From positions 186,001-250,000 of the forward strand of contig NW_001799388.1 in the NCBI RefSeq assembly GCF_000165425.1: DNA of 64,000 nucleotides. The letters are read 5' to 3'. Source of the stretch: Paramecium tetraurelia (lineage: Eukaryota > Ciliophora > Oligohymenophorea > Peniculida > Parameciidae). The notes below the pieces were generated by a model, which was given only the letters and a program-made list of their open reading frames with translations, did no database searches and was not told where the DNA came from. A program made the position numbers and the translations under genes. Positions 7,978 to 32,500 of the stretch are shown here, piece by piece; the first letter of the stretch is position 1; each line of letters begins with the position of its first letter.

Positions 7978-9670
7978 ATGGAGGTTTTGAACGATGCTTA
8001 TCAAAAGGGTGAAGTTCTTAATGAAGATGAATACAAAATTGTCAGAAAAATTTACAAAAAAAAAAATGAAAAATAATATATTTCTCTAGAGATTAAAAAG
8101 ATGAACCTATCAAGAGAAGAATTTAATAAATTAACTTAATTTAGGTTCCTGAATATTCTCCCTTATAAAAGTTGCAAGTATGATTCTGAGATGCCTTCTA
8201 TAAAATATTAAGATTTTCAGAAGTATTTATTAATGGAAAATCAAATAAATAGTGAAAATGCAAAACTTATTGCCTTATAATTAGGTTTATGTATAATTAA
8301 ATTTATATATATATAGTGAGTGCTGAGTTGTAAGACAGAAATATGCTTTGGTTTTTAAATTCTATTACTTAATTATATTTGAATGAAAACCAATTATATG
8401 TTTCTTTAATCGAATATGACTTTGGCTAATCAAAGGAGGGACAATCCCAACTCTAAATATTATAAAGATTTTTTGAGAAATATTTTTGTGATAAAATTCC
8501 AGGATTGTCTGATGTAATACATTAAAGTCAAACCTTTGATACTATTATAGATTTTCTCTTAAAAATTAATGGTAACTTTGATAGAACTGATAAATTAAAT
8601 ATTCCATATCAAAATTTATTGGGATTTCTTTTTAAAGTTAATGCGTTTAGCACCATATATGATTAAAATAAATCTGTGGTAAAATCATTTGCAAAACCTA
8701 AAAGCTTTCTTTAGGCAAATGAAACAAGTGATATTGAATTAGTTTACAAAACTTAGAGGCTAGACTCAAGTGATGATTAAACAGTAAGAAGAGAGATAGA
8801 AATTTCTTAAGAAATATAAAACTCTTCTTTTCTCATAAAGATATTTGCCTACTTGAAAATTAAAAAGTAAACTTTCATTTTCATGAGAAAATATCAAGGG
8901 ACTCTAGCAAAAAGATTGGAGACATTAAACAATTTAACTCTTCAAGAAAGAAAAAAAACTGTCATTAAACTATCTTTTAGATTTATAAAAGGTATGTATC
9001 TATCAATTATCCTTTTAGCTATAAAGGCTATGTAGGATTTGAAGATTATTCATAGGGATTTAAAACCGGAGAATTTATTCTTAGATAATCTAGATTTATA
9101 ACTTTCTAATATCATAATCGGCGATTTTGATTGTTCTAAAAAGCTCCAAGATCGTGATTGTGATAGAGATATGAGCATAAACCATTAGAGCAATACTTAT
9201 AAGTACGATGCTCCTGAAATAAAATATTCTTTTGAATATGATATTTTCTAATATGCATTGATCGTGTTAACTATTGCAAATAATAATAAATATATTGGAA
9301 AGGAAATTGTGGGTTGCAGAAATTTGAATGAATAAGACCACGAAGAATACTATAGTAAAGAGTCTTTACTTAAAAATTCGAATCTTTCATAATACCCCTC
9401 AGATTTTATCGATATGATTAGTAAGTGTTTAAAAAGAGATCCTCAATAAAGGCCAACAAATAAAGATATCTACGAATATACCTCATCTTTATATTACTTA
9501 GGAACGATAAAAGTGGAAAATACTGTATAATAAATCAGTGAAGTTTAGACAAGACAAAATTAGAATTATCAACCATTACTATCAGAAAATCTAACGTAAT
9601 AGTAATAGTAATAATAATAGTAATAGCAATAATCATAATTGTAATAATAATAGTAATAATAATAACAGTA

Positions 9671-9724
<54 letters not shown>

Positions 9725-9871
9725 GTAGTAATAATAATAATAATAATAACAGTAGTAATAATAATAATAACAGTAGTAATAATAAATAATAATAATAAAT
9801 AATAATAATAATAATAATAACGAGTAGGGGAGTTAATAATAATAATAATAGTAATAATAATACTAATAGTA

Positions 9872-9910
<39 letters not shown>

Positions 9911-10103
9911 GTAGTAATAAGAATAATAATAATAGCAATAATCATAATAGTAATAATAGTAATAGTAATAATTATAATAATAATAACCATAATAGTAATA
10001 GTAATAGTAATAATAATAGTAATAACAGTAATAATTACAATAATAATCATTTTTAGTAAGAGAAAACAAGAAAAATAGAATAAAAATATATGAATAATAA
10101 TGA
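7978..10103 (+). CDS. Divergent protein kinase with long poly-Gln tail
   Basis: About 690 residues. The N-terminal 300 residues are charged and only loosely resemble a kinase N-lobe. The C-lobe is clear: IHRDLKPENLFL (catalytic loop), then GDFDCSKK, in which the usual DFG is DFD, then a DAPE motif and a C-lobe ending KCLKRDPQQRPTN. Introns of about 32 and 27 nt lie near 8284-8315 and 8991-9017. From about nt 9597 the frame enters a TAA/TAG microsatellite that encodes roughly 150 residues, mostly Gln, with short Ile, Asn and EQGS interruptions, and closes in frame at TGA 10101-10103 after a basic peptide. The glycine loop and catalytic Lys were not identified, so activity is doubtful; a pseudokinase is possible. 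Confidence 0.85.
9597..10055 (+). repeat. TAA/TAG trinucleotide microsatellite inside a gene
   Basis: About 460 bp of TAA and TAG triplets with scattered CAA, CAG, TCA and TTA. In the ciliate code this is poly-Gln with a few Leu, Ser and Pro. Between about 9786 and 9821 the repeat phase slips so the same bases read as Ile and Asn runs, then returns to Gln. The host reading frame stays open across the whole tract. Confidence 0.9.
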
Positions 10104-10284: not shown

Positions 10285-13200
10285 TCAATTGATTCTGGAG
10301 TCTAGAGCTGTGTGGTCTCTTTCATCAATCACTTGTCTTTGCTAATTATTTTATATTGGCTTTCTCTTTTTATACTTCCAGACACCATACGCCACAATTC
10401 CCATGATGAAGAGTGCTCCTAAACAAATAATTATAATATAATAAAAAGGTAAACCAGTTTAAACTTCTACTTCATTTGACAATTCAACTTATTTCGTTTC
10501 TATACATTATCCTTAAAGCAATGCGTAATTAGATTCACATATCAAACATATATCATTAGATTAACATTCACTGCAATATTCAGGACAAATAAGTACACAA
10601 TCCATATTATCTGAAAGAGTGTACCCAATTTCGCATTCAATTTCGGAACAAGTTTGATTGAGTGAAACTTCGTATCCTAATGTGCATTCGGTACATTAAT
10701 TTGGAATGGTACATGATACACAATTCAATCCACAATCTATTTAGCAGAAGTTATTTTCAACATAGTATCCAGCTTGGCAATTTTAGCAAACAGAGTTGCT
10801 CAAACAAGATAAACAATTCAGTGGACATATTATTGATGTTTGATTATTTTCTACTGTTGGATTTTGTATAATTAAGCTAGAAATATTGAATAATTGTAGA
10901 TAGAAATTGTCTAATGTATTATTACCAGCAGCTGTCCATGTGATGTAAAATTCATCATCATTTAACACCTAAACACCTGGGTTTTTGGGATAAAGTCCTT
11001 TTCTCGTAACCTAAGTTTAATTTGAGATTTGTAGTCCATCACTATCAAATATCTAAAATACAATATCCTTAGATTTCAGAGACTTATCAACTGTCCTCCA
11101 AACAATAATAAATCCATATCCAAATGATGTAACATAGGGATGCTCTTCCCCATAGGAAGGACTAGCGAATAATTTTGCTTCAGACAAAATCTTATCTAAA
11201 TTCATAATCTGATATGATAGAATATATTAAGGAGGAGATATATTTGTGCTAACAGCTTCAAAGACGAAAACAATATATTTATTCTTCAAATTTGTAGATT
11301 TGAATGCTTTAGCCTCACCAACTTCTTTAGGCTCAGTAACGATATCACCTTAGGTTGTAATTTAAGCCAAGAAAGTAGCACCTTCACTTGAAAAGGTAAT
11401 AGATATCAAACCATCCTCATCACTAGATATCATTGGTACTTTAGATATATCTGCATTATCTAAAATCTACATTTATCCAATGGGTGCTAGACTATTACTA
11501 AATGATTATAAGAACATAGTTGCTGTATTTAGAGATTATTCAGCTTGATTGAAGAACCCAATAACAAAATTATTATTTGCAGTTTTTTTGATAATGCAGG
11601 GAGCAGCAATACCATCTAGATTCTATTTGGGTATTTCAGTAACCTAAATTGATTTGGTTAAGGCTTGACCAGCGACATCAAACTTCTTAAGATTCACCTT
11701 CATGTCTCCAACAATTTAATCCACCCATAAAATAACAAAGTCCTTATCAAATGTGGCAATATCTGAAAACAGTGTTTTTGCTGCCTTACCGGTAGATGCA
11801 GATTATAACAATCTTCTATTTCCTAGTTCATCCATGTTAACCTAGGTTTTGGTTCCTATCTTCTGACCACTCTTTTTATACAATTAGAAATACACACCAG
11901 CATTAGGTCCTTCTTCAGACCATAAAGCAATGTAATCTCCATTGGGGAATGTTGCAATTAAAGGCTCAGATATGCTGATTTCACCAATCACATCTTCGAG
12001 CACAACGCATTCAGTTTTTGTTTTACTCCAATAATAAGAATCATCGCATTGTTTACAAACAGGGGGAGCAGTACAAACCAAGCAATTGGGTCCACAAGTT
12101 CCTATGCATTCAGTCATATCTTATTGACTTTAATAAAAGTTTTTAGGACATTATAAGCAATGTTGGAAAGTATTGCATAATGAGCAGCTTTCTTTGCATA
12201 TATTCTTTTCGCATTGATTATTTGATCTTATTGAATAACCTTCTTTGCAAGATGAGCATATTGTTGGTGAACTGCAAACCAAACAGGTATCAGGACATTA
12301 TGGCTCACATTTATAGGTATTTGGATTCAAAGCATAATTAGTGATACACGTTTAACATGTATATTCATTTGAACAAGTTGCACATTCTGCTAAGCAAATC
12401 AGAGTTGGAGAAGGTAGCAATTAATTTTGATCTGTAATTCTCAAATAATAATATTAATATTTAATTTATAAACTGACTGTTGTATAAGAGGATAGCCATT
12501 GTATAGCTATTTAGTTAGTGTTAATGACTTTTGCATAGTATAATTTAATGTTATTACTTATGGTGTTCAATTATTTGGTTTAAGATATAAATATTCCAGA
12601 TTCTTCATAAAATGAGATACTCAATTATGAATAGGTGATAGAGATGAAGTTATTCCATATTATAGCAAATCTGCCCTGTAAGATAATGATTTGAGGGTTC
12701 TCCAATTTTCCATTTGAATCAGCAACCACTTGGTAATCTGTGATTCTTTGAAGGTCACTATTAAGTAGAGTATAATAGATTTGACTCTTCGAAGTCAGGG
12801 ATTAGGTTGATCCTGTTTTCCAGGTTAATACAAAGTTAGTATTCTTGAGTTTTCTTATGGTAAAGGATTCTATAAAAATGGTGTACTAGAGAGTAAATTA
12901 GTTTTCTGTTATTTTAACATCCTTGAAATCTAGGTTGTAATTGTATAGTCTCATTAAGTAGTTTTAATTAATTTCAATGATAACAATGGAGTCCAAATTG
13001 AAACAAATTTGTCCATATCTTAATTACCTTTTCATTTCCAAAAGTCTATTAGGACTTGTAATTCTTAAGTAATTTTTGGTTATTTTATATTCGAATACTT
13101 CATATTTCATAAAATCTGAGATTCGTGAATAAACAACCTAATATTGGGTATTTTGATAATATAAATATAGAACAAAATCGTTGTATGCATTTTGATAGAC

Positions 13201-16200
13201 AGAATCATAAGGAATAGTGTCAATCTATATTTCTGTATCAACAACTACCAAATCATAACTAATCGTTATTAATTTAATCATTAAGTATTCTTTTTCTATC
13301 ATTTCTACCCAATATACTTGTATTGAATTGTCTTCTCTTACTAAAACATTAGATTGTAAGACTTAAGATTTTAAGGATATTAATTTTATTGAATGTGAGA
13401 AATCATGTTGATTTGTATTTGCAATTAATTGTAGATTGATGTTTAAGAAATAAGAATCCCCTTAAAATGTGACTGTTCCAGAATATATCAATACATCACT
13501 ATCTCCGATTGTTATACTTGATGAAAAACTTGGTAATTCATCAAATGGAGTACTTAAGATAGGATCTTCAGGTAATAGATTAGAAGTGATTGTAGAACAT
13601 AGACCTGATGGATCAAGTTTAAATCCATCTTTGCATAAGTCACAGAAATTAGGTTTTGAACACTTACTGCAATTTGAAGGACATTGAGGTACACAAAATC
13701 CTTCTATTAATTGATATTGATCTGAACATTTAATGCAACTTGTTGATGAAGAACAACTTCTACATTTATTTGAGCACACTGGACTATCTATCAATTCTTT
13801 TAATCCATTGGATCCGAATTTCATCATAAAGATACCTTTATTCTCATCTCCTATTGGTTTCAATCCATCCCAAATAATTAAAAATTTATCATTATTTAGA
13901 ACTGAAATTTATGGATATTCAGGTTGAATTGTTATTACATTAACTTCAAAAGATGGGCCTGAAGGAACTCCATTGATATCAAATATCTATGCTCTTAATT
14001 TTCTCTATCTTGATGTTCCTCTATAGTAATTTTACCAAACAATAACAAAACCATTTGAAGTTGCTGCAATATCTGGATTAATTGCATCGGTATTCAAATA
14101 TTCCACTTCCAAAATTGATCCTAATAAGTTAAGATTAGTGTCAAAAAGTGAGTATTTAATCTTCTCTGATTCTCTCCAACAAAGGACATATTCTTATCTT
14201 GCATTAGATGTGATACTAGGTGAAGCTATCCAAAATATTGGATGAGTTACACTTGCTAACTCTAAACCTTCGAAATCATAAACGGTTGCAGCTAATTGAT
14301 TAGAACGTCTATACACAACAACAAAGTTGAGTCCATTAGAATTAATAACAATTTCATTGTTGAATTAAATATCTGTAATTTGATTTTATCTTCTCAATAC
14401 TCCATCGTTATTAAACAATGATACAAATATAAAATCTTTATAGTCTTTATTATTGACCCATGCAATCACAAATTCATTATTACTCAATCCTTGAACTACT
14501 AATGGTCGATCATAATACTAATAGTAATCGAGAGCCAAATAATCAATAAATGTTGGTGTTCCTATTCTATTAAGTTCTTAATCAAATATCTAGAAATAAA
14601 GTTCAGATTCAAGACTGATATCTCCATCTGCCCAAACTATAATAACATTATTATTAGGTAAAATGGTGACGTCAGGCAAAAATTAGGAGTTCTTTGTATT
14701 AACATTCACTCGAATAATCTAATCGACTGGAACTCCTTCTGGACTAATCAACTATGCATAAACTCCAAAACCACTTCCATCTTATAATTTACTCTACCAA
14801 ACAATAACACAACCACCATTCAAGAAAGAAGCTACTCGAGGTAAATCCTCAGCATAATCGAATGTACTATCTAATTAAGTTTCAATAGGTTATCCAGCTA
14901 AGCTTACACAATTGAAAGAATCATCAATGTAATAATCTGGTAAACAAATATCACATGATAATGGCTATGTACAACTCTTACAATTGGATGAGCATATGGG
15001 TACACATTATTGCTGCGCCAATTAATAATTATCTATACATCCTTAACACTTACTAATAGCAGTACATGATGTGCAAATAGGTAGACATTAAAATTCTTAG
15101 AATTTCAGTCTCTCGCTATTTTAACCAAATCTTGAAATCATTACCTTACCTTTATTAGCATTATTTTCACCTTATTCCAACCAACTAAATAATAAATTGT
15201 TATTCTGTTAAATTATGTAGCTGAATGAACCTTAAATCAAAGATGTAGGAGCTATCAAACCTTAAAACAAATCTACTTTCATCTAGTAATCGTATACGAC
15301 TAATTTATATCTCTTTGAATAGTCAAATTACTAGGAATATATGTAGCATATTTAAGAATAGTCAATTCTAATTATTTTGAAATTTGATTGAAATTTATCA
15401 ATCATTAGGATATCTCCAAATTGTAATAAGTCCAATTAGGTTGATAACCTTATCAAATGATTAAATTCTAGCATAATAAAGATCTCCTTTTAGAATTTAT
15501 TCATTGATCCGTAACTCAAATAAGATGGTATAAAGTCTTTTAGATTTCTTTCATTTTAAATTTACCCTTAGAAATTGTATGTTTAAATCCATGTTTCTAT
15601 AGAATTGTCATCAAAAAGCAACACATAAATATAGTCATCTATTATAATATCACTAATTCTAAATTTAAGGCAACTATTAGATTCATCCAAAAACAAATTT
15701 TATACTTTTTTATCTTTATTTTTAAATATTATTGATGGTACTTACTAGTTGCCTTACAAATCCAAAAGAATTAATTCTTGAGTATTGCAAACAACCAATC
15801 GAGGATTTTGAGCAAATTAATCAATAATTGATTTTCTATCACCAGCTAAAAGTAATATAATACCACCATAATAAGTGTAGAGTTTCATTTTAGATAATTA
15901 TAAGTAAAGATATTCTGACTTTAAGAACTCGTCTAGCTTAATTATAACAGTATTCTATTCAAACTTATCATTAAATTAGAGAATGATTTTTTAATCAGGA
16001 TTTGCTAACAAAACTACAAGTTGATTTGTTTCCTTGTGATATGCCGCTTAAAATGCATCGTAAGTAGGAAATTATAAGTTCATAATGGATTTAGAATCTA
16101 TTATAATACTACCATCAGAAGTGAAAGTCTATACAAATAGCTAACTTGAATTATAATTTAACCATAGATGTATAATTTCACCATAAACATTTTCAATAAT

Positions 16201-19200
16201 CAATGTAGTAGATTGAATATTTTCTTAAAGTACAAATTCATAATTTTGAGTATTATCAATCTCTTTACAACCCAAACCCATTTCATCTAAGTAGTATCTA
16301 TCGTTACAAATATTACAGCGGTCTGACCAATAAGAGCATGAAGAACAATTAGGAATTAAACATATTGGTTGACATTAATTACTACTATTTAACATAAATC
16401 CATCAAAGCATGCATCACAAGATTATTAAATTGTACATCTTTTACATGATTATGGACATAAAATAGAATTGAATGGTTGGATAACCCCATTTCTATTTAA
16501 TTTTTAAGCATAAATTGAATTTTATTCATTCCATGTTACTATAATAGATCCATCTTATAATGGTGTAATGTTAGAATTTTATGGGTATTTGGTTTAAAAA
16601 CTTATAGGTATGAATCCAGATTATTGATTGCCTTGTAAATCAAAATAAACTACTCTGACATCAATATATCTTGAATTAATTTCATTTAATCCACCAAATG
16701 AGATCGCAAAACCATTTGGAATGGCTGCAACATCTGGTTTAAATTCTTTCACGTAATCTAGACCAAAATAGTTGTATTTTATGGATTTAAGATAAGGATC
16801 AATTATGGTATAAACAATTGAATGTCTTTAATAGCTTGGAATTTCTTTGAAATTTGATAATTTTGAATTTGGCTCTAATTTTTAAACCCAAACTAAAACA
16901 ACATTTCCATTTTCTATTTTAGTAATTGATGGCTGCTATCCTAAATATGATTCCAATTCATATGTAGATTAATAAGATAAGCTAGAATCATAAACTTACA
17001 AGACTATTCTGCCAAATTATTAAAATGCGATGAAAATGAAATCTGTAGTTGAAACGATTGAAGGTTCTTTTTTGAGCAAATACTCAAAAAATTAAGGTGT
17101 TTATTCCCAATAACTTAACCACCACCAATAATCTTATTAAAAGAAACCAACATATGAAAACTATAATTCATTCATATTTTAGTCGAATTTCTTAATATAG
17201 ATATCATTGTTTCCAAATAATAAAATTGCTACCTCATCATTATTCAGATATTCAACCGTAGCAAATTTCAAGTTTTTCCATTCTTTCATTTCCTCATATA
17301 CTATAAATTCAGTTCCAACTTTTTACAATGTTTTATCATATTTTTATGCTTTGACTTAGGTACTACCACTTACAAAGTCGACCCAAACAATCAGTATTTC
17401 ATCTAAACTTGAAGTAGAGTAATCAAAATATCCGATATTCACACTTTAAGCTAGGACTATAAGATCACTATTATTCTCACCTCCTGAAGTGTGTAATTAA
17501 CCATGCAACACCATTTAATTTTTCAAAATTTATAGTGTAACAACTAATATTGTTCCATCACTTAAAGCTTTGACTCTTGGTAAGATGTATTCTCTTTCCA
17601 AAGAGGAACCTAGTTACTTTTCCACTATAATATTTGGGTCTGATTGCACACATTCTTAATTATCTTTGATTCGAAATCCAGACTCGCATTGATTGCAAAA
17701 TTATTATTTAGTTCCAGATTTATCACAAGATTGACAATGATCAAATTCACATATTAATTGACATTAATATTAATCATCTATGTAATAATTAGAATCACAA
17801 AGTAGGCATTATTAAATAGAAGTTTTAGAACTAATGCATCTTAAGCAATTTTAACCACAAATTTCTTCCCAAGTTTTTATTTAGTTACATTTATAATCGA
17901 GCCTTTCCAATAGTACAAATAAATTATTATATTACATACCTTAGATATCTAATCTTATTATAGACATCAATAAAATTTTATTATTAAGGTATTTTTTTAT
18001 TATTCCTTATTACATTGCATCCTAATACCACCACCTGTTATTGGATAAAAATTTAACTTCTTTCACTGCTGAGAGTTTTTCCATATTAAAATTAAATGGA
18101 AATAGTTTTAAAGTTTTATAGTTATAATAATATCTGGAAATGTCTGCGTAATATTAAAGAACAAATGACCTATCTAATTGAAGGATTTAAATTAAATTAG
18201 AATTCCAACACGAAAAGCAACAACCTGCACATTCAGAGCTCCATTAAGAGTATAATTAATTTTGAGATATCACTTAATGCTTTATCAATTAAAATTCTTT
18301 ATCAAAGTCAAATTTTATGATTCCAGTCGGAAAATAACTAAATATGATATACTCATCATTATTAGTTTGATATATCTGACTTCTCTATTGACTCCACCAA
18401 TAATAAACAATGTCACTAACTTGCTGATAGGCTAAATTCATATCGATAAACTTAGTTGAAGTTGAATAATCATATTTATCGACTAGAATAACTTAAATTA
18501 TGCTTTATTATGAATCCCACCAATAATATTGTTAATAATTGCTAGTGACTACTAAATGAGTCTCAGTTTCTAGTACAGAAACTTAATTATTATTAAGCGA
18601 CAAGTCCCAATAATAGTCATTATAAACTTTATTTATATTCAAAGGAATATCATTACTTATCTATTAGCCTTTATTATTATATACTCTGAATAATATTTTT
18701 GGACTACTAAATTATTAACCATTATTATCATTCATGTAAGTTACAGCAAATCCTCCGCCTGATAAAGACTTTATTGATAATATATTATTAATATAAGAGG
18801 GCAAATTCCACCAGTAATAATAGTTCCACAATGCAATTGTGACAATATGTTAGCTTTATATTTCCCTACCATTTTAATCATAAATGTGTAACCAAATATT
18901 ATTATTAGAATTCATATTAAAAGATCTGTTTACTATTGCAAAATTACCATTCGACAAAGAAGTAATTCTCATAATTGATTAATCTCCATCTCCACCAGGA
19001 ATGTATTATTCTTCAATTATTACTTCTCCTTAATTATCGATAATCTTAAAATACATTTGTTTACCGTCTTAATAATATATAATGACAATATTTCCATTCT
19101 AAAGAGTTATGAAGTCCTAAATTTAGATATTTTTATCTTCTTGTCCAATTTTATAAAGTACTTGATTTTCGCTAATGATTATTTTATCACATTCGCCTTT

Positions 19201-22200
19201 CTAATTCAAAGTATATCCATTTTAACATTACCTACATACTCCAATCGCCGTCATCCACTCAAAAGGGCATTCTATACAATTTGATGGACATTTAATTTAA
19301 CAAATAGATTTTGTAGAATCAAAATAAAATCCTTCATTGCAGGATTCACACAAATTTTATTTGCTGCATTTATTACAATTAGTTTAACATATAACATTTG
19401 AGATTTTTAATATATTTCCACTTGTATCTAATCTTTTAGCATATAATCCAAAGTCACTGGCATCCCTGTCACTTTTAATATAATAATCTCCCTTTTCAAA
19501 TAAGTTTTGACTCCAAGTTACAACATATTAATAATTTCCAATATATGAAATTTTAATATTTTCAATTTATCCATTATAATCATTTAGTTACTTAATTTAG
19601 CTTGTTGATGAAACCAGATAATTATCAAAATATTAAATTTAAATACTTGAAGTCTCAAAGCGAATATTTCTTTTTGTATACTAAAATCCTAAGACAATAC
19701 CCCCATCAACCTAGCAAAGAGACACTTAATTAACATAAGAATCCGGAGTAATAATAACTTAATCACCAACCTCTTAGAGATTCTAATCAAATCTCTATAT
19801 TGCAACATTATCATAATTTGACCATGCTATAACTAATTAATTTAACTCATTTTTTGTTATGCTATAATAATCATATTATGTATCGAATACTCTTCCATTA
19901 ATTATATCACCTTCTACGCTAAATGTTCTAAGTTCCATCTATCTATTTTAATTCTTCCAAAGTACATAAAGTATGCTATCTATTTAAGTCATTCCAACTT
20001 AGAAATTATAGTTATAGGTTTAACCAATTAATATGGATTTAAACTCCATAAGATTTTCATCAAACAATTTCAATCTAAGATCATAATAATAGTCTTTAAA
20101 TGAACCAAATCCTAAAAGAACAGCTAAATTCTTATTTGATAATTGCAAAATTCGATATTCAACCTATTAATAAATGATATTATTATTAAATAATAAATCG
20201 TTTGTTACTGAATCATATAACACAATTTCATTTCCAATTCTTTCAAAATTAATTGAAAATTTCTACATCAAAACTCTTAAAACATTTGATGGATTACTAT
20301 CTTTCCAAATTACAATGAATTCATTATTTTATAGCGCAGCTACATTTGGATTCTCTTAAGCTCCTATGGCGTCTTTAGTAATTAAAGTTTCTGCTCCTAC
20401 TTTCGAAAATGAAGTGTCAAATAATTGCATATAAATTGAAACACCATTGAAATTTTAATTTTAATCTCTGCTAGTCCATACAACAATAGAATTTTTATTT
20501 GATAAAGTTGCTATATTTTATAATTTTTGATAACCAAATTAATTTGTAGTAATCAATTATTAAGTTAATTCAGGATCTAAGGGTATGCATTCGTGATATT
20601 TATTCAATTAATATCCTTAACTACATATGATTTTATCACCTGTATCACAATAATCTGAATTAACTGGACAAATTTTAATACATTGTTATTAGTTATAAAC
20701 CTAATACCCATCTTAACATTTTAAACAAGAATGATTATTATTACAGTCTTAACAATATTAAGGACAAACAACCTATTATAGTTTCATCTGATTTCCTAGA
20801 TTATCAGTTCTCATCATGAATATTGTTGAATGCCCCCAAGAATTTAATCCAACATCTACAAGAATATAATCCTAATGTTATAGTTATTCAATTTAAAATT
20901 AATAATGTTCATAAGCATAGGATTTCATTTAGGAATAAAAAGACAGACTCCAATGATGATAATCGTCAAATTTATCTACCATTATCTTTTTTTAAGTTTA
21001 ATTAAAATATTATGATGATTTCGAGAAAACAGTAAAAGCAGTAGATTCAGTATTACCAATTAAAATAGGATTTTCTAATTATTCCATAATATAATGTTAT
21101 ATCTTAAAATTATCTGCAATTTTATTTAGATTACTATCAATAAATCCTAACATTATTTGCTTCACATATTCATTATTTTCTAGGATTGATTCACTCCATG
21201 CTAAGACGATATTTCCATTTGTATTTATGACATGAGTTGGAGTATAGATACTATTACCACTGTAATATAATTAAGACTTTTATTCTCCAACATCCTTTTC
21301 TACTCTTAAGGCTTTCAATTTTGTTTCTTCTTATACATATAATATTATGAAAATTTAAGGATTAAAAACTATGATATCCAAATTATTAACAATAGTATTA
21401 TCTTCAATAATTTGTGGATTTTTTATTACTAACGTATCAATTTCATAAATAGTATAGTATCCTTTTGTTTATGAATCTTTATATACAACATATGCAATAA
21501 TTAATCTATTATCTTATCTTCTTAAAACAACTGGCTTTTATTTTTATAAACTTGGTAATTTTACAGTATCTATAGTTATCTCAGTAATTTATTCTTATAA
21601 ATCTTTATTATATATCTAAAGGGCTAATCTACATTAGATATTACAATCTCCCTCAAACCATACTACAGCAAATGAATCATTAGTCAACGTTACAGTTTGT
21701 GCATATTGTCTATCATTTTAGGAAAATATCTATTTTACATCTCCTTGTTTTTACTTATTGCTATCATAAAATTAAAAATGTAAAGTTTAAACTAAATTTA
21801 CTTTATTATTCCATACAACAACAAAACTAGTATCAGAAAAAGCACTTATTGCAACCTTAGTAAGTTTGTAATCTTCTATAGATGCTATGTCATGTTCATC
21901 TACCAAAGTTTAATCCTATTAGCAATTTTATCCATTCAAGTAATATCCAGAATTACAGATATCGCAGGCATCTTTAGACCTACATTAGAAACAACCTTAT
22001 TAACAAATTACTTGGCATTTATTCCCATTCAAATAATAATTTTCAGAACATCTTGAACATTATGTGGTTGTCATGCATGTATCGCAATTGGCCATACATT
22101 TTATAGAATTCAGTGGTATTGGTTTTAAGTGCTTATTATATTAAACTGCATAAATGGTATCTTATGTAGCTTTATCTTACCATGTTATGATGATATTTCC

Positions 22201-25200
22201 ATTTTCTGATAATCCAATTTTAGGATTACTAGGTAGGTTACTAAATGTGGGAATTTACACTGTTTAAATTTGCAATCCTTACTTTGAGAATTATTCTAAA
22301 AATAGGTTACTTTACTTCTTATCTTAATCATATCCAACCCAAATTACGAATATATCATCTTAAACTGAAGCTACATCAATTTGATCAAAACTAATTATTT
22401 ATGATCTTTTAGTGCTATAAATTAAAGAATTATATTAAAAGAATGCTAATTCAAAGCTGTTCTCATATTTTATAATCTGCATTTTAGTTTGAGATGATAC
22501 TATTATATATTAACTATCCTAAGCTACTTCATTGATTCCATCTACATAAAGGTTATATTTTATTTAGGCAAACATGCTGATTGCTGAATTAAATCCATAT
22601 TAATTAATTTAAAATCTTTAATATTGCAAATAAATATAATTTACATCAACTTATATTTTTAGATTTCTTACTCTTTGATCATAAACATGATGTTCATTAA
22701 AAATTTCTTCTTTAATGTCATTGGATTATTAAATAAATATTAATCGTTTCAAATATATCTTGAATACATTAACAGAATCAGTGGTTTCATATACAATAAA
22801 AATATTATAATTGCTATTTATTTCAATGTCATATTCTAATTAATTTCTAAAAGAGTCATAAAAAAGGGAATTCCAAACCACAGTTCTCCACCCCATAACA
22901 AAATTTCCATTTTAATCAAGAATTGCTAATATGATTGAAGTATTTTATCTAGCTGATAAAATGAAATATTCACCAAAAGTCTTGACTTTAGCCAAATCTA
23001 TTTAATCAGAGGAAAATATGTCATTTTTTATTTAAACCCCATGAGAATCAAATACCTTATAAAATGAAATTTATCGATTTCTCGCTGGATCATATTCCAT
23101 CCAAGTTATAATAATATTCCCATTTTTACCAACAGCAATTTATGGTTAGGATTCGCTTTTATTTAAGTTATTTAAGATTTAAAAATAAGAATTTTATTAA
23201 GCTTAAATGCATTGTCTATTATTATTTAGTTAATATCCCTCTTAACAGATCTCACAATAATTTTCTACTTCACAATAAGAACAATTGTCCTAACAGATCA
23301 ATTAACACTTATTTTGACTATCCAACTAGTAGTTATCCTTACATTAAACACAAATCAAGTCATCATCACATGATGAACATGTTTCGTCACATATTTTAAC
23401 AAGCCCAATCAATTAATCATCTTTTATAGAAATTTGTTGAATATATACTTGATTAGTTGCAATATTTGCAGTATTCTTAAATGCTATCATAGAAATGAAT
23501 AAATAATTTAGATTAAAACTTTCTATTTCATAAAATCCAGGTTGAATTGAGTTTTAATTTAATATTTTTTAGGTTTTGATGAGCCCATTTTCTTAGTGTA
23601 AATAATTTAGGGTTTTAAAATTACCATCTAAATGATATTCCACATACAATAATACAAAACTATTAGAATCCAATGCTTTCAATTAAGGATTCCCTTAATT
23701 TTAATTAATCTATGAATAGTACAATACTTCCTCATTCCATCTAAAAACATATATCTTATTATTTAAATCTTATAACGCTATCAGTATTTAGCTTGTTGAT
23801 GGAACAAATGAAATTGATGGATTTTATAGATATCTACAATTCCAATAAGTCTAAAAATTTTAATAATTCTAACTAATTATTTTTCCAAATTAATCTAATA
23901 TAAATAATACTGAATCGCATTCTCTTGACAATAAAACATAAATTAATCCGAAATCATTTACTACAGCATCAAAAATTTTCTTTCTCTTGAAATAATTAAT
24001 ATTTCCAGGATTAGTTTCTCCATAAAAGTTTTAATTTATTAGTTGTCCATTATAATCATAAGTATATGATAAAATTCTTTGATAATAATTATTATTAAAC
24101 CCTCCTTATATAAAAACAGTAAATCCTAGATTTGTACCTAGTACTTTAATGAAACTCTATTCTTGTGTAATTAAGTAGATACTCTCATTTTCATAAAAGA
24201 ATAATTAAGTTGATTTGATTTATTGTAAATCTGATATTTGAAGTTAATCATAGGTTATTCCTATCTTACCTGAAACGTATTTCAACAAGAATAAATGTAG
24301 TACATTTTCTTGATAGAATAAATCAAAATCAATGACATCTACACTATCTAATAATTATTATAAAATTGTTTCACCAATTGTATTCAAAACTTTCAATTAT
24401 AAGAATTACTGACTTTAGTTGTCTTCTTAATAAATTATTACAACTTTTCTATCTGGCAACATAGTGAATTTTACATTTTTTTTAAATGTTGTTTCAGAAA
24501 GACTAACTCTGAATTCACCATTCTGTTAATTGTTATTATTTTAGACACATAAAAATTTATTTGTTAATATGTATCCATCTTGACATATTTCGCATGAAAT
24601 TGAATTTGAGCATTTCTAGCAATCTTAAATACATTAGGGCTAACAGTCATTGTTCACTAAAGAGTAATTCAAGTTACATTATGTACATACATCATTCTAA
24701 CATGTATTACAATTAATTCCACAATCTTCAATATTTAATTATAAGTTTAATTCTGACAAGTATAAATTCTATTTGTATTAAGGTATTAATGTTTCTGGTT
24801 ACCCGTCTATCCATTATACAAAAATAGAATATCTACCTGTTCTTTAGATTGAATATCGATAGATATTTAAGTCTTCATAATTAATAATTCTTTATTAGAT
24901 AAGTTCTAAATTTATATTTTTTAAATGAACTAAATTAAACTAATAATTATATCTGTTAATTCCTACTATAACAAATGAATCCTCCAATGCTTGCAATTCT
25001 ATCAATTCATTCTAAAAATTGAATTAATTTTCCCAAGAAGGTTAACCTGGAATTGTCGTGTAAGAATATGAATAAGAGTCTTAATTGTTATTGAGAATGT
25101 CAGAAAATCTTTGATCATATACATACACAGTTATCCAATTATAAGAGGGTTGAACGACAATAAAATTATTATTAGAAAGGGCTGTAATCTTTGGTTAAAA

Positions 25201-25968
25201 GCTTAGTTCAGAATTATAATTATAATGAAACAATTTAAAAGTTCTTTAAATTTATCCAGTATAATTTAAAATTGTGGCTTAATTATTTGGTGTCCCATCA
25301 ATCTTTTATATTAATACAATAACATCAAGTTAATTTATAGCAATGGATATTTCCTTAGAAAAGATCAAACTGATATCAGTAGTTCTGCTGTTGTCTTAAT
25401 AATCGAATATCAATCCATTCCATATTTTCGATTAATTAGGACCTTTGTACAATACTAATAATTTAGTTTCTTTAATATATTATAGATAATGGAATTCTGA
25501 TACAAAATCCCAATGAACTTCCAAATGAATGTCATTTATCTCTTGTTTTTAAGTTATCGGATCCAAATCAAAATTAATTATTTAAATATATAGTCTTGTA
25601 ATTCCACTTTGCTTTTAAATCCATCCTAGAGCAAATCCAATATTCCCTATTAAAGCCACTTTTGGTCTTATGCATTCTGAATTTGAATCACCAAATTTTA
25701 GTTCTTTTCCAACCTTTTTTTCATCTCTTGTATATTTTTATAAAATAAATGATTTATATTCATTTTCATCCACAAGGGATTACAAAAACAATATTTATTT
25801 GTTGGGTAAAACAATAGTTTGCATGTTTTATTCCACTTAGGTAGAAAATTAGTCAAATTGCCATCTTGTGCTTGACTGACTAGATTCAGCTAAAATCCTC
25901 TGATCCCCTTCTACTAAGCGGCAACCCAATATTAAAAGACAGGCGTAAAATATGAAGCTAACGCGCAT
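10285..25968 (-). CDS. Giant modular cysteine-rich surface protein, about 5,230 residues
   Basis: A single frame of 15,684 nt from ATG (complement of 25966-25968) to TGA (complement of 10285-10287). I split the region into codons from the stop to about 25,440 and saw no in-frame TGA; no intron is needed. It starts with a signal peptide (MRVSFIFYACLLILGCRLVEG-like) and ends with one membrane segment (FYYIIIICLGALFIMGIVAY) followed by a basic stop-transfer and a 30-residue cytoplasmic tail. The ectodomain alternates about 350-400-residue beta-rich units (motifs such as GFVIVWQNYYRG and ALWSEEGPNAGVYF) with CxxC clusters (CRSCSSSTSCIKC, CSKCSKPNFCDLC). Eleven clusters are centred near 24640, 23300, 22020, 20680, 19320, 17760, 16370, 15000, 13680, 12200 and 10700. 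A large cell-surface or coat protein is the natural reading; no function is established. Confidence 0.9.
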
Positions 25969-26536
25969 AATTATTTAAATTAATAAGAACTGAAGATATA
26001 AAATTTGATTAAATTACTATATCCAGCACCCCCATATAAAATAATAAACAAAAAATTTGCTTAATAAATACCGAATGTACAAATTAAGTTATTCAGTATT
26101 AGAGTACAAATAAAATATTCTATTTATGAGAAGATGTCCTTTAGAAAAATGAATTAAAGATTTCAATTCCACACTAATATTCATTAAATTAATTGATGTT
26201 TAAGTTGAAGTCTATGTTGTTTTAAATTAGAAGTATTATTTACATTATTGGTCTTCAATTAATGTTATATGATTAATAAGACTTTTTCATCAATATAGTG
26301 ATATATTTCCTAGCTATTTTTTGTTTACTAATTTTTATTTCTGATAATTAATAATAAAAATAATATTTTAATGAAGTTAATCGAATAATTAAGGATATTT
26401 TCAAAACACATGTAAAATAAATAAAGCAAAGCTTCCATCTCTTTTTTGTTTTATTATTCTTTTTTAACTAAGTTACTATGAAAAATTAAAAAGTTGTTAA
26501 ATAAACCTTAGTTAATAGATATATATATAGAAATAT
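25969..26536. other. AT-rich intergenic stretch
   Basis: About 570 bp upstream of the giant gene and downstream of the calcium channel gene, hence probably the promoter region of the former and the 3' end of the latter. Strongly A/T-rich; no coding frame, RNA gene or repeat recognised. Confidence 0.5.
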
Positions 26537-29500
26537 TCATCCATTAAATGTTTCTGTCATGCTTACAGGTTGATTATTGATAATATCAATAATGTGTTTC
26601 ATTCTATCTTGAATCTTCTCTAAAGAATCATTCATGACTTTCATTTTCATTTCAATGGCCTCCTGAATTTCATTACCTTTCTATTAATCGTCCATATCTT
26701 CTTCAGCGAATCGTGCCCTATAATGATGAATATTGTTGTTACCTTTTAATGGGCATCCAACTTATATCCTTTATATCAATCTTGGATTTGATATAGGATT
26801 CATTTCCATTATAATCATTTTCGTCCTTATGCTTCAAATAAGCATAATAATATATGTAATTCCACATGTAATGCTCTAGTTCTATATGTTCTTGAAAGCC
26901 CATACCGCCTCCTTCATCGTTTTTTTCAAATTTTTCTCTTGTGATGCCACATATGAAGCACTTCATAGTTTAATCTTTGATTCTTTCTTGAAGTTTCTCT
27001 CTCAATGATCCAAATGTGTCTACAATAATACCTTATATCATATTGAGCATAATCATCACCAACACAATGTTGACAGCATTATCAAACACAAAACGACTAA
27101 AATAATTCGAAGTAAATTGATGATCAACTCCATCATATTCATTTTACGAGTATTTGACTCTATCCCAACCATTTACAACCATATCATAATTTTGAGTTAT
27201 CTGAGTAATAGTATCGTAATCCATTATTCCTGAACCTAATGCCCCTGTGAACTTGAATGTCAAATCAAAACTAATAAAAATGCATTGCCACATTGTACTA
27301 CATCCCCTCTCACATATGATATGATCATTGTCTGGTAATATTCTGCAACTTGTCCCATCCACAATCCGATAATCATTAAAAAATATGACGAACCCAAGAA
27401 TTCCAACGTAGTATTCAACTACTGCCAATAATAGAAGGGCTAAGCCTATTTCCTATCTTGGACCCCAAATAGCATCCAAAACTGTTTTTAATTGCTCCAA
27501 CTTTAAGAAATCCATTAAATGAAATGCAAAAAAAAAAGGATGCACTGTCAATCCTACAATTCCAGCAATTATATAGATAAAATAATACAAAATATCTGGG
27601 TCCTATAACAAAATAAATAAACTTTTTATTCCTCTTACACTCACCTCCCAAATCATTTTCATAACTGTTTTTGGTTTTTGATAATCTTCCCAAATATGAT
27701 CCACTTTTAGAGGTGCTCTTTTGACCAAAAAGAAGAACACTATCAAAGAACTAAACACCAACATTGTGATTCCCAATCCTTAAATTAAATGAGGTGTCCA
27801 TATGAAATCTGAATACTCTAATAACCTTGGATCTTGCAATCTTTCATAAATCAAATCACCAGTTTAACCAGATTGACTTTCATTATAAAATGATTACGAG
27901 TAACTTAATAGTACAATAAGATTAATAACTAATGTTGTTACAAATGCACAATTCTCCCATAGTTTTCCAGATGTTGCGAAAAATGCGAAAATTGGATTTT
28001 TAGCAAATACTTAATTCAATTTTTCTTCATATTCCATAACCTTTATTAGAAAATTCGCTCTTTCCATCAAGTATGTTAATTTAGTCTTGCTGCTTGTCCT
28101 ATCCACTTGATCATGAAATTCGAGTCTAGCACTTTTTGGTAAGTTACAAATAGGTAATTTTGGAAAATAAATTGTGTAAAGCTTTTAATCTCTGATCATA
28201 TCTATCGAGCAAGTATTCTATCTGAAAAACTTAATAGCATTTTTTGTTAACTCCTTTTGCTCTAATTTCTCTTACAGCAGCTTTTCCTACCTCAATTCCT
28301 CTTCTGATTTCTAAGCCAATCCCAATTATCCGATTAGATTCCCCCCCATTTTTGCAATATTCCCTAAACCTGAAAATATATTTGCTATTGCATTCTCTTC
28401 CTTCTTATTGTTGTTTTCAGAAAACTCATTTAAAACATCATTCATCTCATTATCCTCATATAACATCTATTTGGCTTTTTAATTACCTAAAAACTATTAC
28501 ATCAACAAAAATATATAGAACCCATTTTCTATTATGAATTCTTAATTTACTGCTGGTTCATCATTTGTGATATCTTTCTCAGCTCTTTTGAACATTTCAT
28601 CTTTGTACACAGCTCCAAATGAGTTCTTGAATATTTTGTACACCCTTGTCAAATTATTTGTTAACACATTCAATGGAATAACTCTTACCAATCTAGCAAT
28701 ATCAGAATTCTAAGGGTCACAACATTCTAATAATGATACCAAACAATTTAAACATTTAAACTTCAATCTTGCCAATTACCCTGGATGAATGGCTAATCTA
28801 TATTGTTTTTCACCATCATATTTGAAATACTCGTTTGATTATTCAAATATCTTCTCATCTTCTGACAATATAAGTACAACATATTCCAAAAGATTGCTTT
28901 TCAATAATGCCTATTAATTTTATTTGCATGGTCCTTGAATGAGTTCTGTCAGGGTTTCGAAACATTACAGAACGCTTTCATAATTTCCCTTAGAAATTAA
29001 AAACGTAGAAAGTAACAATACGATTTAAGAAACTAAATCAAAACTATTCTTTTAGTTACTTTAAGATCTCATGTAATTTTAGAGATCCTAGTTGTGACCT
29101 TCACAAAATAACTATATCAATTTTAAGGCTTTACAAACTAATTTATTTTCTTAATAATTTAACTTATGAGCTCTACTCATTGATAATATTTAGATATCAA
29201 ATACATTTTTGAGTTATTTGAAAAACTTTTCACATTATGTATTTGACAAAAAATATTCATAAGCAGTTTTTTAAACATTTTTATTACCATTTTTTAGTAG
29301 CAAAATCATGAATGACATAATAGTCCCCATATATACTGGTTCTAATTCAGATTCGCATAATAACACTATCAATATTTAAGTTACATTCATTCTGTTAAAT
29401 AATACCTGTCTTTCGTACAATTCATTCTCTGTATCCTTCAATATGGCTGATAAAACTTTGAGAATAAAGATGATATTCTCTCTACTTGCTCCATTTGTTT

Positions 29501-32500
29501 TCCAAAATTCCAAATATGTCAAAATTTTAACAATAATATCTGAGTTTGTCAATAATAGATCCTTCACTTCTTATTTTCTATCATCTTTAAACATATTCTA
29601 TATTGTCCAAATGGAATTTGATAACTTTAAGGATTCCTTTTTAACTAAATCCTTAACAAATTCTTGACCAAAATACTTTTTACGAAATTGACTTATTGCT
29701 GAATTTTCTTGAGTTATTTGATAATTAGTTAACATATCAGCTGTCTTTTCATCCTAAGAGATGTTAGGATCTGCCTAGAAGAATTTAATAGGAATTTGAA
29801 TATTGAAGCTTTAGCCTAAATCTGAGATGGTTTTTAATCTTTATTTATTGTTAGTTAATTCAGCTGGTGCTAAAAAGAACATTTTATCAAGATTTTCCAA
29901 AAAGAATGACACAAATTCACTTATCTAATGTTAATCTTTTTCAGATGACAGTAGAGCATTTTGTAACAGTTCGTTATATCTATTTACAACAGGTAATAAG
30001 GAATCAAACAAGTAATTCAAATTTTAAGGTATAAATTAATCCTTTTGTTTGATTACTTTATGTTCATCTGTGAGTATTTTATTTAAGGTTTCTGAATTAT
30101 AAGGAAACATAAGTTCATCAAGTGATTCAGGCTTATGAAATACCATTGTTTTGATAATGTTCCAATAATCACTCTACAATTGTATATCATCAGGATGAGG
30201 CTTTTCTTTCTATTTTATACACCCCAATATTCTTTAGGTCACTATTAATGTTTGTTCTAAAAGATCTTGTAATTTTAGAAATTCAATTCCTTGACTGATT
30301 AATGAGGCTCTTATCTTTTTTGACAGACATTTTGACACTATATTGATGAAATACAATTAATATTTAGCCTTATTAGGAGTATAGTCGAAAAAGTCAGTCA
30401 TTTTACGAGACTCTTAAAATGGATATAATGGGTTTTCGTATTCTGAATCAGGGGATAAACTCATAGGTTCAGTTAGTTTTTCAATTATAATTTCAAACAT
30501 ATCAACTGACTTTTTGGAATATATTTCTGTTACTTTAATAATTTCTAAATAAAATTACAGAAACTCAGGGTATCTTCCATGTTATTTTATTAATGCAATA
30601 AAATAATCGTATTCCTATTAACCAAGTTAGCCATATAAGGTTGGCTTTTTCTCAAATAATGAACAAATTAAACTTATTTAACCAATATTCTGATTGCTAT
30701 TCTAAATTATTTTCTTGACAACTTTTCTATACACAGTTAAAGCATTCCTTTCATTATCTTTGGCAAAAAAGGCCATAATGTTCATTGTATGTTTCAGTAA
30801 TATAATTAAATCAGGAGGAAAAGACTTTTAATCAATAACAGTTAATGCTTTATTTATCAACTCTATTAATACTTCGTAACCACCTATATGTTCAAATATT
30901 TATTATTTTAATTTTAGAGAAACACTTTCAGTTTACTAAAATATACTATCTATTTTCCATAAACATTGTAGTGTTTAATGCATAATTCTATTGTTCTCTG
31001 TTATCCAAGTCTAACTTCGTTGGACATTATTCTTCAAAATTTAAGTCATTTAAACCCATACATCAAACAATTATTGGGATTCATTGGTATCTAAAATCTA
31101 TATATTCTCAAAATGCTATAAAAATTCTTTCTTTTACCTAGCAAACCTTTAAATCAACTCAACGATTTGGTTCTCCAATTAAGGATTCCTTGAAAAATAC
31201 AAGGAAATTAGCAACACTTCTATAAATGGTCTTCTTAAGACTTCATCAAAAGTTTTTAAAACTGGAGCCGATGTTCTATTTAATCTCCTCTCATTTTCTG
31301 GTTTATCTATCCATTATTCTCCTGACATCAATATTTCTTCTGGAAATAGTTTAATTAACTCTTCCTCTTTAACTTCATCATTTAATTATTTATTTTACTA
31401 TAGAGACTTATAAAACTCAATCGCATTATCTATCCAATAATCCTAAGAGACATCCATTAAATAAGAGAAAATCTAACATATTTGTATCTTTATTAACACT
31501 TAATAGTCTTCTTCCTTGTTTTCTCGTAGGGTAAAGGTTTTATTATTGTATCTTTATAACACTTTTTTAAGATTTTTCATTTTCTTAAATAAAGAATCGT
31601 TAACAACTTCTGTATCTTATTATTTAACCTATCTAAAATTTTGATTAGTTTATAATTGTTCATCCTTTTCCTTGGTTTCTTTTTCAAACACTTGACTAAT
31701 ACCTGATATATTAAATTTCATAAAGCCTTTATCTTTTTCATTTTCTGCTTACCAATTTCTCTTAATTTTTGCATTTGCAAGACACTTAAAATACTAATGA
31801 TCATATTCTAAAATCTTTGCTAAGACAGTAATTAATCTATCAATTTCCTTTAATCCCATTCCATTTTCTGATATTTTATTAAAAAGTGAAGCGCCTCTCT
31901 TATGTGAGTTCTTTTTCTAGATGGGACCTTCAACATCTCTTTTCCAAAACAACTCAAATTTAAGCATTAATTCTAATATCTTAATGATTTCTAATGTCTC
32001 TAAGTTATAAACAGTTTCTTCTCCTAAATTTAAATCTAATTTTTCTGATTAAACTTCCAAATAGATGAGCATCTTAAGTTTCAACTTCTAAATATCAAAC
32101 CCTCCTTTTTCGTGTTTCTGACTAGATACTTCATCAAATAAAAATAAAGTTTTTTAAGTAGTTTTTTCTTCTAAAATCCTGACCAATTCAGGTTTAGGTG
32201 TTGTTGTATAAGGTTCTCTATCAATATATAAGGTTCTTATCATTCTAAAGAAGTATGCTCGAACTTGTTTATTAACAAAGTGATACTCTCCATTAAAACT
32301 ATCTTCTTAATCATTTTTTTATTCAGCATAAGATAATAAAATAGAATAAGTAAATGTTTTAGATATCAGTTCTCTTGCTGCTGTATTTCTATGAAAACAA
32401 ATATTTGAAAAAAAAGCCAGTTATTCAATTAAAAAATTGTATTACACTTCATAAAAATGATCCATATCTTTGAATTATTGATAATCATTTAAAAAGTCAT

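Follow-up and report, generated by a model that had tools for sequence, protein, structure and literature searches.

What kind of protein is encoded by a ciliate gene of more than 5,000 codons that reads as one unbroken frame? This question is raised by a 64,000-nucleotide stretch of the Paramecium tetraurelia genome (assembly GCF_000165425.1, contig NW_001799388.1, here C176, positions 186001-250000), hereafter the window, whose minus strand carries a giant gene at 10285..25968. Its predicted product consists of beta-rich modules that alternate with cysteine clusters, followed by a single membrane span. We propose that it is a type I, multivalent, lectin-like giant surface receptor or adhesin with eleven propellers and disulfide-rich CxxC spacers, and we put the probability of this reading at about 55%.

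A single giant gene

The open reading frame (ORF) extends from stop to stop over 10285-26184 on the minus strand (5,299 codons under genetic code table 6) and includes 363 TAA/TAG codons, which are decoded as glutamine. A preliminary description of this DNA had claimed a single uninterrupted frame and had named an in-frame TGA as the sign of several genes; no in-frame TGA was found across the ORF ahead of the terminal stop, and the claim holds. Because the frame continues open upstream to 26184, the start codon at 25968 is a putative one. It encodes Met73, the first residue of a hydrophobic signal-like segment, and the product from this methionine comprises 5,227 residues (about 598 kDa) and terminates at a TGA stop.

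Twenty-four intron-like in-frame stretches (length 3n, GTR..AG) were counted in the gene, and none of the 24 is close to one of the five sites at which the window protein, compared with two paralogues, has an insertion of at least five residues. The paralogue on contig C54 of the same assembly matches end to end, with 11 modules in the same order, which argues for one gene. Taken from sequence comparison, a single, unspliced-looking gene is supported.

Layout of the protein

Eleven beta domains of about 370-430 residues alternate with eleven cysteine clusters, and a module together with its cluster measures 429-530 residues with the boundaries used here. The preliminary description had counted eleven copies of a 430-520-residue module and had given a center for each cluster; the count is confirmed, and all eleven centers lie within about 35 bases of the positions that it gave. 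A Kyte-Doolittle hydrophobicity scan placed just two segments above threshold, one N-terminal and one near the C terminus, in agreement with the signal peptide and one C-terminal span described earlier. Clusters 1-9 contain 10-13 cysteines each, cluster 10 contains 24, and cluster 11 contains 20; this doubling of the last two clusters recurs in relatives on contigs C54, C8, C103, and C184. One minor group of four cysteines lies within module 6 (residues 2652-2659), further cysteines are scattered between the clusters, and the protein has 24 N-glycosylation sequons. The predicted features are listed below, with blade counts from the held-out blade profiles and E-values from the bacterial comparisons that are described in later sections.

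10285..25968, minus strand: whole gene from Met73, 5,227 residues plus TGA stop
25909..25968, minus strand: signal-peptide-like hydrophobic N terminus, residues 73-92 (Kyte-Doolittle peak 1.86; also in C54 and C8)
24724..25887, minus strand: propeller module 1 (held-out blade profile, two blades above all shuffles)
24547..24723, minus strand: cysteine cluster 1, 12 cysteines
23392..24546, minus strand: propeller module 2 (two blades above all shuffles; weak in profile comparisons)
23209..23391, minus strand: cysteine cluster 2, 12 cysteines
22099..23208, minus strand: propeller module 3 (bacterial profile and blade profile)
21922..22098, minus strand: cysteine cluster 3, 12 cysteines
20767..21921, minus strand: propeller module 4 (bacterial profile and blade profile)
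20587..20766, minus strand: cysteine cluster 4, 10 cysteines
19390..20586, minus strand: propeller module 5 (bacterial profile E 2e-24; five blades above all shuffles)
19189..19389, minus strand: cysteine cluster 5, 12 cysteines
17890..19188, minus strand: propeller module 6 (bacterial profile and blade profile)
17650..17889, minus strand: cysteine cluster 6, 13 cysteines
16459..17649, minus strand: propeller module 7 (bacterial profile E 7e-10; six blades above all shuffles)
16267..16458, minus strand: cysteine cluster 7, 12 cysteines
15088..16266, minus strand: module 8, more divergent than the other ten (assigned as a propeller solely from its position and its paralogue)
14908..15087, minus strand: cysteine cluster 8, 12 cysteines
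13777..14877, minus strand: propeller module 9, nearest to the bacterial domain (AlphaFold2 model, tblastn E 5e-22, profile E 1e-35)
13597..13776, minus strand: cysteine cluster 9, 12 cysteines
12397..13596, minus strand: propeller module 10 (one blade above all shuffles)
12007..12396, minus strand: cysteine cluster 10, double, 24 cysteines (24 also in C54 and C8; 26 in C103 and C184)
10828..12006, minus strand: propeller module 11 (bacterial profile E 3e-21; five blades above all shuffles)
10504..10827, minus strand: cysteine cluster 11, double, 20 cysteines
10378..10446, minus strand: single membrane span (Kyte-Doolittle peak 2.7)
10288..10377, minus strand: 30-residue basic tail, presumably cytoplasmic, ending ALDSRIN

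Fold of the modules

Module 9 and its cluster were modeled with AlphaFold2 from an alignment of the eleven window modules, which resulted in a predicted local distance difference test score (pLDDT) of 82.8, a predicted template modeling score of 0.83, and 26 strands in residues 1-360. Seven strand anchors, chosen by eye, are spaced 45-58 residues apart in this model. The model was compared with the PDB using Foldseek, from which the figures given here cover 50 of the 1,314 matches. The best E-value belonged to CylK (2.4e-10), and the highest target-normalized TM-scores among the matches listed, 0.66-0.73 at root-mean-square deviations of 4.3-5.5 Å, belonged to the Photorhabdus proteins PLL, PHL, PLL2, and PLL5, which we take to be seven-bladed. 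We are confident in modeling module 9 as a seven-bladed beta-propeller. The beta-domain of the preliminary description has thus been sharpened: the recurring beta module is real, and AlphaFold2, Foldseek, and profile comparisons refine it to a predicted seven-bladed propeller with bacterial relatives. Propellers were also matched when Foldseek was run on viral models, with an NHL-repeat protein of Fadolivirus in first place (E 4.4e-13, 15% identity). At the sequence level, a phmmer search of the PDB with module 9 reached a best E-value of 0.036. According to passages of PMC8916777, CylK joins an RTX-like domain to another domain, and a bacterial adhesin with a five-bladed propeller is described in part of PMC12153261.

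Among Pfam models, PF03302 (Giardia VSP) matched the window protein with E-values of 1.6e-11 and 2.4e-8, scored above its cut-off in each half of the protein, and had its best stretches in the cysteine clusters. Weak matches under the cut-off were obtained for fn3 (0.01) and PSA_CBD (0.25), and an NCBIfam scan of the window protein returned nothing at E up to 1. For the propeller part of the scanned proteins, ciliate or bacterial, no Pfam or NCBIfam model scored above its curated cut-off, and a profile based on these modules would therefore give a name to a domain that is so far unclassified in either kingdom.

Bacterial relatives of the propeller

Module 9 was searched by tblastn against 72,556 plasmid records and matched 32 of them, 19 from Pantoea. 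The best E-values were alphaproteobacterial, namely Roseomonas haemaphysalidis (5e-22) and Salipiger (2e-19). Module 11 matched three of the plasmid records (best 8e-4) and module 8 matched none; among phages, module 9 had no tblastn match. One candidate link to phages, a stretch of 91 residues at IMG/VR locus L021 (3001-3264) with 34% identity to the end of module 9, was rejected as probably due to chance. The Roseomonas protein (WP_207419968.1) starts with seven 58-residue repeats, which are followed by Ig-like and DUF4214 domains; that of Salipiger (WP_083191561.1) has seven 55-residue repeats, with RTX repeats near its end. One of the Pantoea relatives adjoins type I secretion genes.

Eleven module sets (window, C54, and C8) were also compared, as profiles, with seven bacterial domains, consisting of the two plasmid domains and those of five of six further loci (all except L030). 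The E-values for modules 1-11 were 0.012, 0.15, 2e-5, 1e-5, 2e-24, 2e-8, 7e-10, 0.37, 1e-35, 1e-3, and 3e-21, with reversed controls at E of at least 0.3. For the best modules, these profiles show homology between the predicted propeller and domains of seven repeats in proteobacterial proteins; because of their E-values, modules 1, 2, 8, and 10 are not clearly tied to bacteria directly. The spread is patchy: of 299 genomes sampled from the phylum to which a Methylobacterium locus belongs, at least 14, counting the Methylobacterium genome itself, gave a module 9 match with an E-value of 1e-6 or lower.

A giant protein of Shimia sp. R10_1 (locus L033) carries 56 blade hits, one of which scores -4.4 bits, arranged as eight sets of seven in 6,200 residues. 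The gaps between sets measure 175-207 residues, apart from one of 352, and the 6,200 residues contain no cysteine. No Pfam match exceeded its cut-off in residues 1-3,000 of the fetched frame. The nearest Pfam model to the propeller part of the Salipiger protein is Glyco_hydro_43 (E 4.4e-7, 30.0 bits vs. a cut-off of 32.2), which also matches weakly in the Shimia giant (E 0.0049).

Ciliates of the Paramecium kind eat and host such bacteria. A speculative scenario, to which we give a low probability, is that proteobacterial proteins, perhaps those of alphaproteobacteria, were the source from which the ciliate propeller was acquired, and that it was then amplified to an intronless eleven-unit array and joined to CxxC spacers. 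The result would be a receptor convergent with animal LRPs, which perhaps reads the surfaces of the same bacteria.

Relatives in the same genome

Eukaryotic relatives were sought in the genome assembly of the organism itself (231 contigs, 69.07 Mb). The preliminary description had regarded the protein as unusual; it is not singular, as relatives of the giant gene were found on five further contigs (C54, C8, C103, C132, and C184). The C54 frame, 5,307 codons from stop to stop, aligned along nearly its entire length with an identity of 32.6% over 5,344 columns (BLAST) or 34.0% over 5,140 columns (MAFFT), and the best C54 match lay at the same position for all 11 window modules. The C8 frame has 5,070 codons and eleven cysteine clusters. 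Its best match lay at the same position for three of the 11 window modules (1, 5, and 11) and was strong for module 11 alone (237 bits); for window module 9, the closest C8 counterpart is module 5. Full colinearity of C8 with the window protein was dropped on this count, and its 24% identity and 145 shared cysteine columns stem from a forced global alignment. Since just these three positions correspond, the equal module number in C8 may be ancestral, with subsequent divergence, or partly independent. A single query from the C-terminal part found C176, C54, C8, C103, and C184, in each case with an alignment that spans almost the whole query.

The loci on C103, C132, and C184 (L012, L013, and L017-L020) lie on short contigs or at a contig end, and parts of them are about 69-96% alike. 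A DPT-repeat was seen at the beginning of C184. Some of these loci may duplicate others in part.

Are all eleven modules propellers?

Blade profiles were built by leaving out one position at a time, so that the tested position was excluded from training, and their scores on three proteins were set against those of 100 shuffled versions per protein. At positions 1-11 of the window protein, the numbers of blades that scored above the best shuffled blade were 2, 2, 2, 4, 5, 3, 6, 1, 5, 1, and 5, and the full-length blade score exceeded the best shuffle at 10 of the 11 positions. The single blade of position 8 reached 9.3 bits, with the best shuffle at 9.1, and position 8 is clear in paralogue C8 alone (36.5 bits). 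When the modules were compared with one another as profiles, module 8 had no persuasive partner, its best E-value being about 0.03, with a reversed control reaching about 0.06; module 2 was linked weakly (about 4e-4), and the remaining nine more strongly. This second comparison agrees with the blade test in setting module 8 apart from the other putative propellers.

Proposed role

As a surface receptor or adhesin, the chain would be a single-pass glycoprotein that operates in the manner of LRP-like receptors built from propellers and cysteine-rich spacers, but with another kind of propeller. After export it would sit in the plasma membrane, or in the membrane of a secretory organelle with its ectodomain facing the lumen. 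The disulfide-rich CxxC spacers would serve as rigid rods, and ligands would be bound by the faces of the propellers; the likeliest ligands are glycans of bacteria, other cells, or matrix. Eleven weak sites could add up to strong multivalent binding away from the membrane, and the short tail would serve as an anchor, not as a signaling domain. Ligand binding is favored and not proven, because propellers of such shape include both lectins and enzymes.

Several observations weigh against this proposal. Sialidases rank beside lectins among the Foldseek matches listed, and since the best E-value belongs to an enzyme, CylK, the fold alone cannot choose between binding and catalysis. A tandem AlphaFold2 model of modules 8 and 9 had a pLDDT below 50 over residues 1-393 (module 8), and the rod shape is something that we infer, because the tandem model gave no usable geometry. 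In the full-length blade test, window position 8 fails (-6.1 vs. 6.5 bits), C54 passes at nine of 11 positions (failing at 2 and 8), and C8 passes at just five of 11 (5, 6, 8, 9, and 11). Frame breaks occur in the relatives on C103, C132, and C184, and may represent pseudogenes, indels, short introns, or sequence or assembly errors.

The alternative that survives best, although we consider it unlikely, is an endocytic or sorting receptor similar to LRP1/LRP2, which would capture ligands at the surface or the cytostome and release them in acid endosomes. Many propellers, cysteine-rich spacers, one C-terminal span, and a mass of about 600 kDa make up the same general plan, but the Pfam models for LDL-receptor A, LDL-receptor B (Ldl_recept_b), and EGF were unmatched at E up to 1. 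Furthermore, judged by eye, the tail lacks NPxY and has no clear YxxPhi or dileucine signal, whereas the C8 paralogue has YKKL and YCQV.

Quite doubtful is a membrane protein of trichocysts or other secretory organelles, in which a lumenal propeller array would bind matrix or organize docking. Paramecium reportedly has trichocyst membrane proteins with matrix-like domains. Large cysteine-rich membrane proteins, the cysteine repeat modular proteins (CRMPs), serve alveolate exocytosis, according to parts of PMC9670195 and PMC9815656, but those of Toxoplasma have nine spans, compared with one here, and nothing in the present analysis links the giant protein to trichocysts. A protein of mating recognition or ciliary adhesion would profit from a far-reaching chain that suits contact between cells, and Tetrahymena MTA/MTB bear cysteine-rich growth-factor-receptor-like domains (PMC10901506, in part); we hold this explanation to be very improbable, as these proteins have five spans and the giant protein has one. 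That several adjacent genes or an assembly artefact mimic a single ORF is largely refuted by the 5,299 codons without TGA, by the colinear copy at the separate C54 locus, with 11 of 11 modules in order, and by the lack of any internal hydrophobic segment over threshold in the window protein or C54.

Neighboring genes

The adjacent gene at 26703-34403 (minus strand) encodes an IP3-receptor-like calcium channel (ITPR2, 3e-54), and its frame too stays open for 7.7 kb (2,566 codons). At 46136-48625 (plus strand), a frame of 830 residues with 76 TAA/TAG codons contains ATP:guanido phosphotransferase domains, followed by a weak TFIIA match under the cut-off. The protein kinase frame at 8289-10100 (plus strand) is very glutamine-rich, because 146 of its 604 residues are encoded by TAA/TAG codons. 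The preliminary description had assigned introns to nearly all other genes of this DNA; a weak test of that claim was based on five same-strand ORF pairs: one had no joining intron, one had a single clean 25-nt candidate, two had three ambiguous candidates each, and one had 31 low-complexity candidates. The window DNA is low in G+C, and neither Rfam (gathering cut-off) nor a tRNA scan gave a hit in it.

Comparison with known systems

The giant protein resembles the surface antigens of Paramecium in being large, cysteine-rich, and presumably at the surface. The antigens are anchored by glycosylphosphatidylinositol (GPI), measure 250-300 kDa, and have cysteine periodicity throughout (PMC12113882, in part), and the difference in build that had been suggested at the outset is borne out. 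In place of GPI, the giant protein would have a span and a 30-residue basic tail, as judged without a GPI predictor; its size is about 598 kDa, and its cysteines lie mostly in eleven clusters. The anchor, the size, and the cysteine pattern therefore place it in another class. The alveolate CRMPs are likewise large membrane proteins with cysteine-rich domains, but have nine C-terminal spans in Toxoplasma (PMC9815656, in part) instead of one, and PMC9670195, on CRMPs, does not contain the word propeller. Five spans, against one here, also distinguish Tetrahymena MTA/MTB (PMC10901506, in part). Membership among the classical surface antigens, CRMPs, LRPs, or mating-type proteins was rejected, as their defining features are absent. 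A literature search, which covered few subscription journals, returned no paper that we recognized as describing a giant propeller-cysteine family.

Giardia VSPs are cysteine-rich throughout and have a conserved CRGKA tail. The CxxC-rich VSP domain PF03302 is shared above its cut-off, but the tail of the giant protein ends in ALDSRIN and most of its chain is predicted to be propeller. PLL/PHL lectins of Photorhabdus are soluble and consist of a single seven-bladed propeller; the modeled fold is alike, with a TM-score to the target of up to 0.73, whereas the identity is 9-12%.

The propeller repeats in the proteins of Roseomonas, Salipiger, and Shimia are homologous and 55-58 residues long, and each domain of the first two contains seven. 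Those of Roseomonas and Salipiger combine them with DUF4214 or RTX domains and have no CxxC clusters, and Shimia also has a string of propellers, but with other spacers and without cysteine. With bacterial RTX or type I secreted proteins, the giant protein shares a propeller that some of them carry and that does not define RTX proteins; the window protein gave no HemolysinCabind match with an E-value of 1 or below, whereas the Salipiger protein has one. These comparisons link an unnamed bacterial propeller domain to a giant ciliate membrane protein.

LRP1 and LRP2 are proteins of about 600 kDa with six-bladed YWTD propellers and LDL-A and EGF modules. The likeness to them is one of plan, and suggests a second route to a receptor in which many propellers and cysteine-rich spacers are carried on one span.

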